From Paracoccus marcusii (lineage in GTDB: Bacteria; Pseudomonadota; Alphaproteobacteria; Rhodobacterales; Rhodobacteraceae): 64,000 nt of DNA. Shown here piece by piece: positions 9,249 through 21,443 of this stretch. The DNA lies in the NCBI RefSeq assembly GCF_028621715.1, contig NZ_CP117466.1:315001-379000 (forward strand). Reading direction: 5' to 3'. Position numbers and translations under genes: made by a program. The first letter of the stretch is position 1, and each line of letters opens with the position of its first letter. Below the pieces are notes generated by a model. The model ran no database searches. It was not told the origin of the DNA and saw only the letters and a list, made by a program, of their open reading frames with translations.

Positions 9249-9271
9249 CTGGGCCCGCCCTCACTGTCCTG

Positions 9272-9330
9272 CTCTTTCGGGACGTCCGAAAGAGAAAGGG
9301 CGGATCGGGCCGCTGCCACTGCCCGATCCG
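9272..9330 (-). promoter_or_regulatory. two perfect stem-loops in the mraZ leader
   Basis: On the minus strand the mRNA first meets a perfect 10-bp GC-rich stem (CGGATCGGGC / GCCCGATCCG, 10-nt loop, bases 9301-9330) followed by the pyrimidine run CCCTTTCTCTTTC. That run enters the 5' arm of a second perfect 9-bp stem (CTCTTTCGG / CCGAAAGAG, 5-nt loop, bases 9272-9294), which ends about 24 nt before the mraZ GTG. Stem plus U-rich tract resembles an attenuator, and the second stem lies just upstream of the likely ribosome-binding purines. Function is inferred from position only. Confidence 0.6.
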
Positions 9331-9600
9331 CCGCCCTCGTTCCCGATTTACCCGGGCCCCTTTGCGGGGTTGGTTGCCGACCCGTCGCACGCCACCTGGG
9401 GGAGGTGCTGCTCGCGGACGCGGGCCGGCTATGTTGGAAAACGGTTGCCTGTATGAAGTCTGCTTCGCCTGTCCGGGGTCTTGGCGCCCCTTGAACTGCC
9501 CGTTTTCGTGATCCGGTTGTGACATGGGATTTCATGGGAAGCAACGGTATTCTTGGGCCACCAGCCGCATTCCGCCGCAGCTTTTGCCTGAGCCCGAATC

Positions 9601-9622
9601 AAAAAATGCCGCAGAGGCGGCA
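9601..9622 (-). terminator. intrinsic terminator inside the dcw leader
   Basis: On the minus strand TGCCGC-CTCT-GCGGCA forms a perfect 6-bp GC-rich stem with a 4-nt loop, directly followed by six T residues. It lies 257 bp downstream of the mrp stop codon and about 350 bp upstream of mraZ, so it is placed to stop transcripts that began at the dcw promoter region rather than to end mrp closely. Confidence 0.8.
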
Positions 9623-9815
9623 GTGATGCGGCAAAGTTTGGTGGCGTGACGCGAAAGCCACACTACATCTAGAAGGCGAGTAACAAACGCATTTTGCCGG
9701 TCACTGGGTCCATTTCACCACAGTTCAAAGCCCTGCAAGTCGAAAATCCGGGCAGCGTTGCAAAACTTTTGGAACAGATCACGGACGATCACGAAATCGA
9801 GAGGTCATTCGAGCC
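9601..9815 (-). ncRNA. candidate UpsM-like small RNA from the dcw leader
   Basis: The interval between the MraZ-box cluster and the intrinsic terminator, read on the minus strand, has no convincing ORF and could give an RNA of roughly 200 nt. In Rhodobacter sphaeroides the dcw cluster has an extended 5' leader that yields the abundant sRNA UpsM by partial termination and RNase E processing. Position, size and the terminator match that arrangement. I could not identify a clear -10/-35 pair, so the 5' end given is approximate. Confidence 0.5.
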
Positions 9816-9878: not shown

Positions 9879-10970
9879 TCAGGCGATGCCGCCCTGCACC
9901 AGACGGTCGGCCAGGCGGGCATACGCCTCGGACACGGCTCCATCGCCCAAGGCCACCGGTCGTCCCGAATCGCCGGCCAGCCGGACCTCAAGCTCCAGCG
10001 GCAGGGCGCCCAGGAACGGCAGGTTAAGCGCCTCGGCCTCGGCCGCGACGCCGCCATGGCCGAACAGATGCGCCTCGTGCCCGCATTTGGGACAGATATA
10101 GGTAGACATGTTCTCGACCAGGCCCAGGACCGGTGTCTTCAGCTTGCCGAACATGTCGATCGCACGGCGCGCGTCCAGCAGCGCCACGTCCTGCGGCGTG
10201 GAGACGATAATCGCACCCGTGACGGGGGCCTTCTGGCACAGCGACAGCTGCACGTCGCCGGTACCGGGCGGCAGGTCGATCAGCAGGACGTCCAGTTCGC
10301 CCCAGTTCACCTGCTGCAGCAGCTGCTGCAACGCGCCCATCAGCATCGGGCCGCGCCAGACCAGCGCCTCGCCCTCCTTCAGCATCAGGCCGATCGACAT
10401 GACGGTGACGCCATGCGCATGCATCGGATCGATCCGCTGTCCATCCGGGCTGGCAGGCCGGCCCGAGACGCCCATCATCCGCGGCTGCGAGGGGCCATAG
10501 ATGTCGGCATCCAGCAGGCCGACCTTGCGCCCCGCGCGCGCCAAGGCGACGGCAAGGTTCGAGGTGACGGTGGATTTCCCGACACCGCCCTTGCCGGATC
10601 CGACGGCGATGATGTGGCGCACGCCGGGAATCGCCTGCGGACCGGCCTGGGGCGTGGGATGCCCGCCGATCTTCAGGGACGGGGCGGCGCCCTGCCCGGA
10701 TACGGCCTTGGGCGGCGCGGGCTTGGCGGGGGCGGTCATGACGATCTGGACCTTGGCCACACCGGGGATACGTTCCAGCCGGGCACGGGCCTCGGCCTCG
10801 ACCGGGGCCATGGCCTGCGCGGTGGCCGCATTCTCGACCTCCAGCACGAATCGCACCGTCTCCTGGTCGATGGTCAGCGCGCGGATCAGGTCGGCCTGAC
10901 CCAGCGTCCCTCCCTGCGGAAGGGCAATATCCGAGATTGCCGTAAGGATCGTTTCGCGTGTGACGGGCAT
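9879..10970 (-). CDS. Mrp/NBP35-family iron-sulfur cluster carrier ATPase
   Basis: P-loop ATPase of the Mrp/ApbC type, thought to carry and deliver Fe-S clusters in the cytoplasm. The 363-residue protein has an N-terminal MIP18-like (DUF59) domain (about 1-85), a low-complexity Ala/Pro linker, the deviant Walker [12 protein letters not shown] (about 124-134), [10 protein letters not shown] and a C-terminal CPKCG pair that would bridge a cluster at a dimer interface. I use the start at MPVTRETIL; 14 further upstream codons lack family similarity. It is transcribed in the same direction as dcw but separated from it by the long leader. Confidence 0.93.
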
Positions 10971-11213
10971 GTGAGGGACCTGTGTCTTTGTTCGCCCGGC
11001 AGCATGAAGCATAGAGACGGGACCCTCAACACCCCCTGCGACAATCCGTACCGCACGGCGCTAACCGCTTTCAAACAGATGATTTTTGCGCCCGCGGCGT
11101 GATCGCTAACAGATGTATCGTGTCAATTTTATGTCGTTAATTCATCGTTAAAGAAGGCAATAGGTCAGCCTTGGCTATGCAATTGCTGCATGGCAGCATT
11201 ACGAAACCATCCG

Positions 11214-11241
11214 TTGTGAAACGCCGTCGATGGGGCCATCT
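11214..11241 (+). promoter_or_regulatory. RpoH-like promoter candidate for the DUF1127/sRNA operon
   Basis: TTGTGA and CCATCT are separated by 16 nt, resembling the TTG.../CCATNT pattern of heat-shock-type sigma factor promoters in Rhodobacter, and would start transcription about 60 nt before the DUF1127 gene. In Rhodobacter sphaeroides the equivalent DUF1127-CcsR operon depends on RpoHI/RpoHII. Elsewhere in the 338-bp gap between mrp and this gene I see only an AT-rich stretch (about 11080-11160) and a short ATGCA/TGCAT inverted repeat near 11178-11192. Confidence 0.4.
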
Positions 11242-11308
11242 TCAACTCAACGAAACGCCGGGCCAATCCGGGAACGGCGCAGACGAGATGAACCGAAAGG
11301 ATACGACC

Positions 11309-11536
11309 ATGGCTGTTATCGCCCAAGCACACAACGCCACCGCCGACGCCGGCCTGCGTGGCCGCCTGCTGAGCGCGATCCAGCGGATGCAGGAAAACCG
11401 CGCCCGCCGCGCCGTTTACCGCCAGACCGTGCGCGAACTGAATGCCCTGACCACCCGCGATCTGGACGATCTGGGCATCAGCCGCTCGATGATCACCCGC
11501 CTGGCGCACGAAGCGGCATGGGGTTCGGCCCAGTAA
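11309..11536 (+). CDS. DUF1127 small protein (CcaF1-like)
   Basis: Seventy-five-residue basic protein ending in a DUF1127 motif (ELNALTTRDLDDLGISR). In Rhodobacter sphaeroides the DUF1127 protein CcaF1 is an RNA-binding protein that promotes maturation of the sRNAs encoded directly after it. The start is placed at MAVIAQAH because AAAGGA lies 8 nt upstream; an in-frame ATG 21 nt earlier (MNRKDTT) has no such site. The gene is followed within about 25 nt by the stem-loop array, so one transcript probably carries protein and RNAs. Function here is inferred from family and context. Confidence 0.88.
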   Translation: MAVIAQAHNATADAGLRGRLLSAIQRMQENRARRAVYRQTVRELNALTTRDLDDLGISRSMITRLAHEAAWGSAQ

Positions 11537-11560
11537 TTCTGGGACACCAAGAATTTGCAT

Positions 11561-11632
11561 TCCCGGCCCTCTCCTCCTCCCTGGGTCCGGGACCGGCGGC
11601 ATCCTCCTCTCCTCCTCCCTGGAGGGTGCCGC
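11561..11632 (+). ncRNA. cuckoo/CcsR-type sRNA 1 (hairpins 1 and 2)
   Basis: Hairpin 1 (11561-11592) pairs CCCGGCCC with GGGTCCGGG, leaving one bulged base. Hairpin 2 (11596-11632) has a 12-bp stem starting GCGGCA and ending TGCCGC with one G-T pair. Both loops hold the exact 12-mer CTCCTCCTCCCT, which contains the CCUCCUCCC motif and is complementary to Shine-Dalgarno sequences. Two stem-loops with this motif in the loop define the cuckoo RNA family of Rhodobacterales. No T-run follows, so separate RNAs would have to come from processing. Confidence 0.8.
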
Positions 11633-11647
11633 CCAAAAGACGCACTG

Positions 11648-11717
11648 GAACCCGATCCTCCTCCCCGGGTTCACGTGCCAGGCGGCGGCCCCACTCCTCC
11701 CTCCCAGGGGTCGCCGC
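11648..11717 (+). ncRNA. cuckoo/CcsR-type sRNA 2 (hairpins 3 and 4)
   Basis: Hairpin 3 (11648-11672) is a 7-bp stem GAACCCG/CGGGTTC with loop ATCCTCCTCCC. Hairpin 4 (11682-11717) is an 11-bp stem (GCGGCGGCCCC / GGGGTCGCCGC, one G-T pair) with loop ACTCCTCCCTCCCA. These two loops are the only ones in the array that deviate from CTCCTCCTCCCT, though both keep CTCCTCCC. The five A residues after hairpin 4 are not a terminator on this strand. Confidence 0.72.
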
Positions 11718-11758
11718 AAAAAGTTTCATAGCCGCCCCATTCGCGGCACGCTGATACG

Positions 11759-11830
11759 CCCGGTCCTCTCCTCCTCCCTCCCGGACCCGGCGTTCGCGGT
11801 ACGGCCTCTCCTCCTCCCTGGCCCTACCGC
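11759..11830 (+). ncRNA. cuckoo/CcsR-type sRNA 3 (hairpins 5 and 6)
   Basis: Hairpin 5 (11759-11790) pairs CCCGGTCC with GGACCCGG with one C-C mismatch. Hairpin 6 (11796-11830) pairs GCGGTA with TACCGC and GGCC with GGCC around one mismatch. Both loops carry CTCCTCCTCCCT. The arrangement and its 72-nt length match sRNA 1 and sRNA 5. Confidence 0.78.
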
Positions 11831-11838
11831 ACCCCATA

Positions 11839-11907
11839 CGCGGCCCCTCCTCCTCCCTGGGCCAGCGTTCAGCGGCGACCTCCCTCCTCCTCCCTGGAGG
11901 TCGCCGC
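11839..11907 (+). ncRNA. cuckoo/CcsR-type sRNA 4 (hairpins 7 and 8)
   Basis: Hairpin 7 (11839-11867) pairs CGCGGCCC with GGGCC-A-GCG, leaving one bulged A. Hairpin 8 (11872-11907) is a perfect 12-bp stem GCGGCGACCTCC/GGAGGTCGCCGC. Both loops carry CTCCTCCTCCCT. The whole RNA is identical to sRNA 6 in the next repeat unit. Confidence 0.8.
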
Positions 11908-11940
11908 GCCTTCATAGCCGCCCCGATCGCGGCACACGGA

Positions 11941-12012
11941 TACGACGGGCTCTCCTCCTCCCTGCCCGGTCGTAAGCGGTGATGGCCTCTCCTCCTCCCT
12001 GGCCGGAACCGC
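11941..12012 (+). ncRNA. cuckoo/CcsR-type sRNA 5 (hairpins 9 and 10)
   Basis: Hairpin 9 (11941-11974) pairs TACGAC with GTCGTA and GGGC with GCCC around one bulged G. Hairpin 10 (11976-12012) pairs GCGGT with ACCGC and GGCC with GGCC. Both loops carry CTCCTCCTCCCT. The stem sequence of hairpin 9 differs almost completely from its counterpart hairpin 5. Confidence 0.78.
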
Positions 12013-12020
12013 GACCCATA

Positions 12021-12089
12021 CGCGGCCCCTCCTCCTCCCTGGGCCAGCGTTCAGCGGCGACCTCCCTCCTCCTCCCTGGAGGTCGCCGC
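12021..12089 (+). ncRNA. cuckoo/CcsR-type sRNA 6 (hairpins 11 and 12)
   Basis: Exact copy of sRNA 4, 182 bp downstream: hairpin 11 (12021-12049) and the perfect 12-bp hairpin 12 (12054-12089), both with loop CTCCTCCTCCCT. After it comes one more CTCCTCC without a convincing stem (about 12093-12100). No intrinsic terminator is visible before the next gene, whose own GGAGG ribosome-binding site follows 54 nt later. Confidence 0.8.
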
Positions 12090-12152
12090 GCCCCTCCTCC
12101 GGAACCCAGCGCCCCCATGACGCATTGCCCCCGACACGCAATCGGAGGCCGC

Positions 12153-12368
12153 ATGATTCTGCGCAAGGGCACCAAGGTGGAATGGGACTGGTCGGGCCAC
12201 AAGGCGACCGGAAAGATCACGGACATCTTCACCGATGACGTCGAACGGACGATCAAGGGCAGCAAGATCAGCCGAAACGCATCCAAGGACGATCCCGCCT
12301 ACCTGATCGAACAGGATGACGGCGACCAGGTGCTGAAGGGCCGGTCAGAACTGCGCCGCGCCGATTGA
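12153..12368 (+). CDS. DUF2945 (hypervirulence-associated, Tudor-like) small protein
   Basis: Seventy-one-residue basic protein whose sequence (KVEWDWSGHKATGKI ... KDDPAYLIEQDDGDQVLK) matches the DUF2945 family, a small beta-barrel thought to be Tudor-like. Biological role in bacteria is unknown. GGAGG lies four bases before the ATG. The gene comes directly after the anti-Shine-Dalgarno hairpin array, with no terminator between, so it could be read from the same transcript and its own ribosome-binding site is complementary to the hairpin loops. Confidence 0.85.
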   Translation: MILRKGTKVEWDWSGHKATGKITDIFTDDVERTIKGSKISRNASKDDPAYLIEQDDGDQVLKGRSELRRAD

Positions 12369-12407
12369 CGTCTTTTCCCCGCCGTGCGCCCACGCTAAGG
12401 CTGGCGG

Positions 12408-13187
12408 ATGCTCAGCTATCAACATGCCTATCATGCCGGGAACCTGGCCGACCTGCACAAGCACGGGTTGCTGGCGGTCGCGCTGGACTACCTGACCCGC
12501 AAGGACAAGCCGCTTTCCTATCTGGAAACCCATGCGGGACGGGGCCTTTATGACCTGACCGGCGCCGAGGCGCAGAAGACGCAGGAGGCCGCGCAGGGCA
12601 TCGCCCGTGCCACGGTCGAACACTGGCTGCCGCAGGATCACCCGCTGATGCAGGCGCTGCGGGCCGTGCGCGACCTGCGAGGCGCGCAGGCCTATCCCGG
12701 TTCACCGCTGATCGCAGGGCATTTCCTGCGCCACGAGGACAAGGCCCACCTGGCCGAACTGCACCCCGCCGAATTTCAGGCCCTGCGCCGCGTGGCGGGC
12801 TTTGCCACCCTGCACCAGCAGGACGGCTTCGCGATGGCACAGGCGGTCTGTCCGCCCGATCCGCGCCGCGGCCTGCTGCTGATCGACCCCAGCTATGAGG
12901 TCAAGGCAGACTATGCCGCGATCCCGCGCCAGATCGGCCTGATCGCGCGCAAGTGGAACGTGGGGGTCATCGCGCTGTGGTATCCGATCCTGACCGATCA
13001 CCGCCACATGGGCATGACCGCGCAGCTGGTCAGCGATTTCCCCGATGCCCTGCTGTCCGAGGTGTCGTTTCCCCCTGCCCGTCCAGGTCATTCGATGATC
13101 GGATCGGGCATGTTCGTGCTCAACGCCCCCTGGGGCCTGGCCGAGCACGCCCGCCAGATCGAGGCGATGTTCCGCGAGCGCGCCTGA
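12408..13187 (+). CDS. rlmJ: 23S rRNA (adenine(2030)-N(6))-methyltransferase RlmJ
   Basis: Methylates A2030 of 23S rRNA. The 259-residue protein begins MLSYQHAYHAGNLADLHKH, the near-invariant RlmJ N-terminus, followed by YLETHAGRGLYDL and LLIDPSYE, the latter being the DPPY-like catalytic motif of N6-adenine methyltransferases in its RlmJ form (DPSYE). Length is normal (about 260-280). It starts 39 bp after the DUF2945 gene. Confidence 0.94.
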   Translation: MLSYQHAYHAGNLADLHKHGLLAVALDYLTRKDKPLSYLETHAGRGLYDLTGAEAQKTQEAAQGIARATVEHWLPQDHPLMQALRAVRDLRGAQAYPGSPLIAGHFLRHEDKAHLAELHPAEFQALRRVAGFATLHQQDGFAMAQAVCPPDPRRGLLLIDPSYEVKADYAAIPRQIGLIARKWNVGVIALWYPILTDHRHMGMTAQLVSDFPDALLSEVSFPPARPGHSMIGSGMFVLNAPWGLAEHARQIEAMFRERA

Positions 13188-13248: not shown

Positions 13249-13542
13249 ATGCCTCAACGTCTGTCCATCGGCGCCACCGTGTTCCTGGTCCTCACCGTCC
13301 TGGTCGGCCTGTATTTCGCCTATGCCGCGGTGCAGGGCCCGTCGGGCATCCTGCGCCGGATCCAGATCCAGGCCGAGACCGAGGATCTGCGCGAGGCCCG
13401 CGACCTGCTGCAGGCCGACGTGACCCGCATGCAGAACCTGACCCGCCGCCTGTCGGACGATTATCTGGACCTGGACCTCTTGGACGAACGCGCCCGCGAG
13501 GTGCTGGGCCTGCTGCGCGCGGACGAGATCCTGCTGCGGTAG
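13249..13542 (+). CDS. ftsB: septum formation initiator FtsB
   Basis: Ninety-seven-residue bitopic membrane protein with one helix at about residues 9-29 followed by a coiled coil (about 35-65), the FtsB/DivIC layout. It would act at the division site with FtsL and FtsQ. FtsL is encoded in the dcw segment about 6 kb away. Position immediately upstream of pdhA is familiar from other Rhodobacteraceae genomes as I recall them. A ribosome-binding AAGGA lies 9 nt before the ATG. Confidence 0.88.
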   Translation: MPQRLSIGATVFLVLTVLVGLYFAYAAVQGPSGILRRIQIQAETEDLREARDLLQADVTRMQNLTRRLSDDYLDLDLLDERAREVLGLLRADEILLR

Positions 13543-13626: not shown

Positions 13627-14661
13627 ATGGCCAGAAAACCAAGCCCCCAGCAGGAGGCTCCTTCGAACACGTCGAAGGAAGAGTTGCTGAAATACTATCG
13701 CGACATGCTGCTGATCCGCCGATTCGAGGAGAAGGCCGGCCAGCTGTACGGCATGGGCCTGATCGGCGGGTTCTGCCACCTTTATATCGGCCAGGAAGCC
13801 GTCGTGGTGGGTCTGGAGGCCTGCGCCAAGGACGGCGACAAGCGCATCACCAGCTATCGTGACCACGGTCACATGCTGGCCTGCGGGATGGAGGCGCGCG
13901 GCGTCATGGCCGAGCTGACCGGGCGTCAGGACGGCTATTCCAAGGGCAAGGGCGGCAGCATGCACATGTTCAGCCGCGAAAAGCATTTCTATGGCGGCCA
14001 CGGCATCGTCGCCGCGCAGGTGCCCCTTGGCGCGGGCCTTGCCTTCGCGGACAAGTATCTGGGCAACGACAACGTCACCTTCACCTATTTCGGCGATGGC
14101 GCGGCGAACCAGGGCCAGGTCTACGAGACCTACAACATGGCCGAGCTGTGGGACCTGCCGGTCGTCTTCGTGATCGAGAACAACCAGTATGCCATGGGCA
14201 TGTCGGTCAAGCGGTCGACGAAATCTACCACCTTCTTCGGCCGTGGAGAGGCCTTCGGCATCCCCGGCGAACAGGTCGACGGCATGGACGTGCTGGCGGT
14301 CAAGGCGGCGGGCGAAAAGGCCGTGGCGCATTGCCGCGCCGGCAAGGGCCCCTACATCCTGGAGGTCATGACCTATCGCTATCGCGGGCATTCGATGTCG
14401 GACCCGGCCAAGTACCGGACCCGCGAGGAGGTCCAGAAGATGCGCGACGAGCGTGACCCGATCGAGAACATCCGTGAGATGCTGCTGACCGGCAAGCATG
14501 CCACCGAGGAGGACCTCAAGGCGCTGGACAAGGAAATCAAGGACATCGTCAACGATTCCGCGGAATTCGCCAAGGACAGCCCCGAGCCCGACCTGGCCGA
14601 GCTGTGGACCGACATCTATGCCGACGAACTGCCCCAGGGCAGCGCCGAAGAGAACGCCTAA
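13627..14661 (+). CDS. pdhA: pyruvate dehydrogenase E1 component, alpha subunit
   Basis: With the beta subunit forms the thiamine-diphosphate E1 that decarboxylates pyruvate and transfers acetyl to lipoate. The 344-residue product has the TPP-binding motif [12 protein letters not shown] and the phosphorylation-loop-like [12 protein letters not shown] strong AGGAGGA lies 8 nt before the ATG. It is the first gene of pdhA-pdhB-pdhC, downstream of a candidate promoter with an overlapping palindrome. The E1 alpha/beta split is typical of alphaproteobacteria. Confidence 0.97.
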
Positions 14662-21325: not shown

Positions 21326-21443
21326 ACCCCGGATTCCCGGAAGCACAGCCTTCCGGTCCCTGCGCCAGATGCGGGGATCGCCCCCCGTCAGCGCGTTGCG
21401 CCCACGGGGGCTAAACCGATTTGGAGCCATAGGAGGCCCGGCC

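Follow-up and report, generated by a model that had tools for sequence, protein, structure and literature searches.

The window analysed here, a stretch of 64,000 nucleotides of Paracoccus marcusii DNA, belongs to a 3.18-Mb genome assembled as one contig with a completeness of 98.94%. At the locus of interest, a minus-strand gene with a NUBPL-type P-loop NTPase domain (9879-11012), presumably mrp-like, is followed by a DUF1127 gene (11309-11536, plus strand), an array of twelve hairpins (11561-12089), an Hva1_TUDOR gene directly after the array (12153-12368), rlmJ (12408-13187), a DivIC-family gene (13249-13542) and a gene for a dehydrogenase E1 component, called pdhA here (13627-14661). The CcaF1-like DUF1127 protein of 75 amino acids matched PF06568 at 47.8 bits (cut-off 23.3), which bears out the first-pass annotation in placing the array behind a DUF1127 gene, and it is identical to a protein of Paracoccus marcusii CGMCC 1.8602. 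NCBIfam returned no name for either this protein or the Hva1_TUDOR protein, and the locus had no match among phage records. Elsewhere in the window we noted an ffh sRNA at 21367-21418 (RF01793, 62.3 bits) and, at 9249-9700 on the minus strand, the region preceding mraZ/rsmH; for R. sphaeroides, the text available describes the sRNA UpsM as a product of the dcw leader.

From the start of its first hairpin to the end of its last, the array covers 11561-12089, exactly as first annotated, and all twelve hairpins were present on the plus strand in the unconstrained MFE fold, which had a z-score of -9.45 and was matched in stability by none of 100 shuffles. They are arranged as six pairs, as had been proposed, with unit lengths by folding of 73, 76, 78, 70, 72 and 70 nt for units 1 to 6 in place of the 69-72 nt first given. 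Unit 1 consists of a hairpin with a one-base 3' bulge (11561-11592) and a perfect 13-bp stem (11595-11633) in which all 13 pairs show two-sided changes in relatives. Unit 2 carries the two variant loops, ATCCTCCTCCC in hairpin 3 (11642-11678) and ACTCCTCCCTCCCA in hairpin 4 (11682-11717), and unit 3 comprises the hairpins at 11753-11795 and 11796-11830. In units 4 and 6, which are 100% identical, a hairpin with a one-base 3' bulge (11838-11868 and 12020-12050) precedes a perfect 12-bp stem (11872-11907 and 12054-12089), with both hairpins of unit 6 additionally supported by covariation, while unit 5 pairs a one-base 3' bulge (11941-11974) with a stem containing a 2/2 internal loop (11976-12012). 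Within the array, a module of two units has been duplicated in tandem on the plus strand (11725-11910 and 11911-12092, spanning 11725-12092; 87.8% identity, repeat families D3 and D8).

The hairpins cluster far more densely than chance would allow. The 12-mer CTCCTCCTCCCT occurs exactly in ten of them, as the first-pass annotation had reported together with the two variants, against 0.02 expected from shuffles of the window. Its core 9-mer, CCTCCTCCC, was found eleven times, every copy within the array, where 1.09 were expected in the whole window, and the twelfth loop holds a variant of it. When the array was dinucleotide-shuffled 100 times, the number of hairpins with an anti-Shine-Dalgarno loop averaged 0.82 and never exceeded 4, compared to the 12 observed; the 12-mer count, the fold z-score and these shuffled-hairpin counts together rule out a chance repeat. 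A strict bulge-free finder recovered nine of the twelve array hairpins and, elsewhere in the window, 12 scattered plus-strand singles and 14 minus-strand ones, so it is the cluster, not the lone hairpin, that is distinctive.

We then asked of two alignments how well the stems are kept among relatives. The first (A1) held 75 last pairs, including that of the window, with two of 76 listed units left out; the second (A2) held 77 first pairs, again including that of the window, with three of 79 listed units left out and one misregistered row (L009) kept. In A1, 99.2% of cells were paired and 8 of 21 pairs showed two-sided change, while in A2 86.7% of cells were paired, with two-sided change at 21 of 22 pairs. 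The first hairpin of A2 aligned poorly (66-71%); its second hairpin alone reached 98.7%, with two-sided change at 13 of 13 pairs. None of 500 shuffles scored as high in percentage paired or covariation score for either alignment, the number of further pair types was reached by 8 (A1) and 5 (A2) of the 500, and sliding the structure lowered pairing to 36-53%. The stems are maintained by compensatory changes among relatives.

A covariance model (R1) was built from 84 units, with the window and the nine genomes closest to it in DUF1127 left out; in this 84-unit alignment the second hairpin was the only one that RNAalifold resolved, which gave a model of 9 pairs. The covariance check, named beforehand in the first-pass annotation as a refutation test, scored the six units of the window at 74.5, 74.5, 68.8, 56.4, 56.1 and 49.9 bits (E 4e-15 to 1e-9), with the next match in the window at 17.1 bits. 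Across the whole genome the six units again ranked first, followed by a partial match of 27.6 bits (E 0.005), among the 150 of 3035 first-look candidates that were scored. Rfam gave no match at the array at default thresholds. Under relaxed thresholds its CcsR1 model (RF02791) matched five of the six units at 41.8, 40.0, 37.3, 33.4 and 15.3 bits (E 1.4e-8 to 0.92, all below the gathering cut-off of 65.3), and its ar14 model (RF02344) matched three stretches at 55.8, 51.3 and 46.0 bits, below the gathering cut-off of 58.8. Since the default search is silent here, such arrays may stay unannotated.

Upstream of the DUF1127 gene we found a predicted RpoHI/RpoHII-type core promoter (11214-11242, plus strand), with TTG at -36 to -34 and a CCATCTT element carrying A-12 and T-9. 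All 112 upstream regions compared, among them those of accessory copies, have the TTG (11214-11216), the A at 11238 and the T at 11241 (frequency 1.00). In the available text of PMC3441632 these same positions, TTG at -36 to -34, A-12 and T-9, are given as determinants of RpoHI and/or RpoHII promoters, and this match places the predicted transcription start at about 11250. No sigma-70-type site was found in 11000-12400. The core lies at most 750 nt upstream of the array in 106 of 110 Paracoccus arrays; in other genera it was present in 11 of 26 arrays, with no core match in the other 15. Within the window, five core matches were found on both strands, using a spacing of 20 only for this background scan and of 19-21 for the arrays surveyed.

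A predicted LysR-type box, TGCA-N6-GCAT, precedes the core at 11178-11191 on the plus strand, at -72 to -59 from the predicted start, and runs into a conserved inverted repeat, GCTGC-ATG-GCAGC, that ends near 11199. Across the 112 upstream regions TGC was conserved at 94-100% and GCAT at 97-100%, the fourth base being A in 47% and G in 38%. Of the five core matches in the window, only the array promoter has the box. The box (as TGC-N7-GCA) stands 36 nt before the TTG in 76 Paracoccus arrays, with 14 more matches at 37 nt, and all 11 arrays of other genera that have the core also have the box at 36-37 nt. Two further sites in the genome contain TGCTGCATGGCAGCAT, differing from the full 11178-11199 element at 2 and 3 positions. 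For NfeR1, the LsrB site is reported in the accessible part of PMC10746234 as TGCA-N6-GCAT at -72 to -60. LsrB is called unique to Rhizobiales in a section title of PMC11975290, and we therefore name no regulator for the Paracoccus box; our search returned no literature joining CcsR, LysR and an sRNA promoter in Rhodobacter.

At the other end of the array, no intrinsic terminator was found. A T-run (at least 4 T in 8 nt) follows the last hairpin in 90 of 110 relatives and is absent here and in several near relatives, so the 3' end of this array may differ from theirs. Only 31 of 110 Paracoccus genomes have the Hva1_TUDOR gene downstream of the array, where it begins 32-86 nt past the last hairpin; because no terminator was found, the gene may be co-transcribed with the array here. 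T-run loss showed no link with this gene: the T-run was present in 24 of the 31 genomes that have the gene and in 66 of the 79 that lack it (Fisher p 0.58).

To place the array among its relatives, we surveyed Paracoccus and the wider Rhodobacteraceae. Two copies of CCTCCTCCC spaced 20-50 nt apart are present in 122 of 125 Paracoccus genomes. Hairpins were counted per array in 112 of the 125, with one genome (G114) scored 0, a split array (L119) entered as 11 here and by its 6-hairpin part alone in the stem, T-run, DUF1127-position and tree analyses, and a genome whose fetched locus was not the main array (G016) counted as 2. The maximum was 20, the median 10 and the mode twelve (28 genomes); at least twelve hairpins occurred in 49 of the 112 genomes and more than twelve in 21. 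The description of the array as an expansion, made in the first-pass annotation, did not survive this comparison, and we rejected it as a special trait, twelve being the mode of the genus and larger arrays occurring in other genera. A DUF1127 gene lies upstream of 104 of 110 main arrays in Paracoccus and of 21 of 23 arrays in other genera.

In the wider family, at least one match was found in 217 of 295 genomes, a count that is approximate because single, possibly chance matches are included and arrays with a short core are missed. A DUF1127 search of 45 of the 78 family genomes without the strict pattern, plus one Paracoccus genome (G020), returned 30 loci, five with at least three short-loop hairpins (TCCTCC/CCTCCC-type), three with two and 22 with none. 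The reversed-pattern control used for the genus and family counts also matches inside arrays and is not clean, because the loops contain the reversed 9-mer. The largest array, with 26 hairpins, was found in another genus (G288, L200) and consists in part of 6.5 copies of a 140-nt unit with 97% identity, which indicates recent amplification. The Paracoccus genome scored 0 (G114, L180), a single contig, lacks the 9-mer and has seven hairpins behind a DUF1127 gene and a promoter core, with TCCTCCC in five loops and CTCCCCCC in two, a pattern indicating a concerted change of the loops in this array.

Hairpin numbers per Paracoccus array were even in 93 cases and odd in 18 (binomial 2e-13, kinship ignored; 92 and 18 without G016), and 18 of 23 arrays with at least three hairpins in other genera were also even. 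This prevalence of even numbers makes the hairpin pair look like the unit. In even arrays, to which the pair statistics are confined, the gap was 2 nt within a pair (5-95%: 0-5) and 8 nt between pairs (3-35). The two hairpins of a pair differ: of 494 first hairpins, 87 had perfect stems and 181 had one 3' bulge, while among the 494 second hairpins perfect stems numbered 312 and single 3' bulges 22, and 351 began with GCGGC, GGCGG or GCGGT. Although the finder made no demand for it, the 9-mer CCTCCTCCC was present in 1063 of 1157 hairpins, among which there were 593 distinct 5' arms; high counts of shorter cores arise partly by construction, the finder having demanded one of four 6-mers in the loop. 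The loop sequence is thus the fixed part of these hairpins, while the stems vary. On a 106-tip tree of a single gene, RlmJ, made with FastTree, hairpin number changed at least 45 times.

In addition to the main arrays, seven Paracoccus genomes carry nine extra short arrays of 3-5 hairpins on other contigs, and in one fragmentary genome (G085) a short array of the accessory type was the sole array fetched. A DUF1127 relative was found in 3 of 72,556 plasmid records. Plasmid pAK2 of Paracoccus sp. AK26 (L235/L221) carries DUF1127 and five hairpins, and plasmid pCBA4604-01 of P. jeotgali (L222) carries eight hairpins, both with promoter core and box; the remaining plasmid-borne or small-contig module copies are L124, L126, L127, L132, L140, L187 and L190. 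Plasmid pCBA4604-01 corresponds to contig C2 of genome G038, and over 930 bases its copy shares 99.2% identity with the one that this genome carries on its main contig. Five accessory copies from four genomes are 94-95% identical to pAK2 over 1.0-1.8 kb, and their contigs are candidate plasmids. Promoter core and box were kept in all seven accessory copies examined. Between genomes G001 and G018 the accessory copies are 96.5% identical and the chromosomal loci 75.3%; in the close pair G001 and G122 the corresponding values are 94.6% and 92.3%. Given the greater likeness of the accessory copies in the former pair, the promoter-DUF1127-array module has most likely moved between species.

Taken together, these data place the array, which stands behind a DUF1127 (CcaF1-type) gene, in the CcsR/cuckoo family as a genuine and typical member. 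It has adjacent hairpins each with a CCUCCUCCC-type loop (12 hairpins, 11 exact 9-mers and one variant), stems variable in sequence yet kept as stems, a position after a DUF1127 gene and an RpoHI/RpoHII promoter, present as sequence determinants. The cuckoo/CcsR assignment of the first-pass annotation was right, with covariance scores of 74.5-49.9 bits and with matches to the Rfam CcsR1 and ar14 models that stay below gathering. Its statement that a cuckoo RNA is defined by two hairpins was incomplete: the available text of PMC4504443 gives the family 2-4 hairpins with a conserved loop. The cuckoo family of Reinkensmeier and Giegerich 2015, as presented in citing papers, shares adjacent hairpins, a conserved loop motif and variable stems with the array but has 2-4 hairpins per RNA, whereas here twelve stand in a single array of six pairs. 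The locus resembles that of CcsR1-4/ccaF1 (CIN1) in R. sphaeroides in its DUF1127 gene, its 3' UTR array of CCUCCUCCC hairpins and its RpoHI/HII-type promoter. Unlike CIN1, it has six units instead of four and lacks a recognisable terminator; the Rho-independent 3' terminator drawn for the R. sphaeroides locus does not appear in the cuckoo family description. The conserved LysR-type box also sets the locus apart, the CIN1 text available to us containing no mention of one.

With Sinorhizobium alpha-r14/NfeR1 (RF02344) the array shares CCUCCUCCC loops, a TGCA-N6-GCAT box at -72 from the predicted start and an ar14 match of 55.8 bits. NfeR1, however, is a three-hairpin sRNA with its own RpoD promoter. 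We rejected alpha-r14 membership on the twelve hairpins behind a protein gene, the RpoH-type promoter with no sigma-70-type site, and an ar14 score below gathering (55.8 vs 58.8). The CsrB/RsmX sponges likewise have many hairpins with a single repeated loop motif, but that motif is GGA and the loop here is anti-Shine-Dalgarno; CsrA is not known to have a role here. In the literature searched we found neither the plasmid copies nor the asymmetry within pairs nor a promoter box common to this locus and NfeR1, although the 2015 cuckoo, 2015 CcsR and 2021 CcaF1 papers may contain them.

By analogy with these relatives, the array most likely functions as a source of stress-induced sRNAs that block Shine-Dalgarno sites. 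We consider it probable that the P. marcusii group has its ccaF1-CcsR (CIN1) locus here, with a single stress transcript that is cut into Shine-Dalgarno-blocking two-hairpin sRNAs. One stress-induced transcript from about 11250 would encode the CcaF1-like DUF1127 protein and continue into the twelve-hairpin 3' UTR, which would be processed, most likely by RNase E with the DUF1127 protein influencing the cleavage, to yield some six sRNAs with two hairpins and roughly 70 nt each. In R. sphaeroides, according to the available accounts, a shared transcript of the locus starts from an RpoHI/HII promoter and RNase E processes it (PMC10253847, PMC8625941); the effect of CcaF1 on CcsR maturation is disputed, with promotion described in PMC10253847 and interference by excess CcaF1 in PMC8307010. 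Each sRNA would display two CCUCCUCCC-type loops that pair with the Shine-Dalgarno regions of several mRNAs and block their translation, each transcript thereby supplying many copies of one regulator; any effect of dose would follow by the same analogy, and titration by dose, as first suggested, is possible. According to the accessible text of PMC8307010, CcsR1-4 target flhR mRNA and affect glutathione and pyruvate dehydrogenase. In the genome, perfect GGGAGGAGG matches 2-12 nt before an ATG numbered nine, against three for the reversed control, giving no clear enrichment of long perfect targets; four of the nine lie on the opposite strand of the array and five at four other sites, at one of which the gene read encodes 103 amino acids. 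The AGGAGG located 9 nt before the start codon of pdhA, 1.5 kb downstream of the array, is an ordinary strong site and no evidence for targeting.

Repeated pyrimidine loops might instead mainly bind CcaF1, Hfq or a cold-shock-type protein and titrate it by dose, leaving mRNAs aside, in the way that CsrB titrates CsrA by dose. Near-identical loops on variable stems, the fast change in hairpin number (at least 45 changes on the one-gene tree) and the RNA-binding-type protein encoded just upstream would suit such a sponge, as would the reports, in the portions available, of RNA binding by CcaF1 and of its role in CcsR maturation (PMC10253847), and of Hfq interacting with CcsR RNAs (PMC8307010). 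Yet the fixed loop core complements Shine-Dalgarno sites, and NfeR1 offers support for pairing by way of this motif: its loop motif silences an ntrB reporter, and a mutant in all three motifs does not (PMC10746234, as far as its text was available). RNA binding was not found for the DUF1127 protein YjiS in the available text of PMC12501420, and we regard a protein sponge as unlikely. We think it very improbable that the hairpins serve to shield the DUF1127 mRNA from exonucleases and to terminate it, with the loops as a by-product: the T-run of most relatives is indeed intrinsic-terminator-like, but it is absent here and in several near relatives, a single hairpin would be enough, and shielding would not fix one loop sequence amid varying stems. 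A tandem repeat at the DNA level with no RNA function could appeal to the partly recent duplication that left units 4 and 6 identical, but it is contradicted by the compensatory stem changes and by conservation of the array behind DUF1127 in other Rhodobacteraceae, in part with the promoter; we rejected a purely DNA-level repeat on stem covariation and give it next to no credence.

Beyond Shine-Dalgarno blocking at this one locus, a joint reading of the survey can be offered tentatively, and it may well prove wrong. Rhodobacteraceae cuckoo arrays would be dosage devices that gain and lose hairpins pairwise, a bulged one together with a perfect one, with a fast turnover that ranges from a few hairpins to 26. 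Modules of promoter, DUF1127 gene and array would be copied to plasmids and move between species, and control by a LysR-type regulator, through a box at the NfeR1 distance, would be ancestral and common to both anti-Shine-Dalgarno RNA systems.

The array is not new in kind. From a few described loci the survey makes a family with measurable rules, namely pairs, an asymmetric pair, a few to 26 hairpins, a LysR-type box and plasmid copies, and these rules render testable whether the strength of regulation depends on how many hairpins an array has and which regulator, in addition to RpoH, induces these RNAs.
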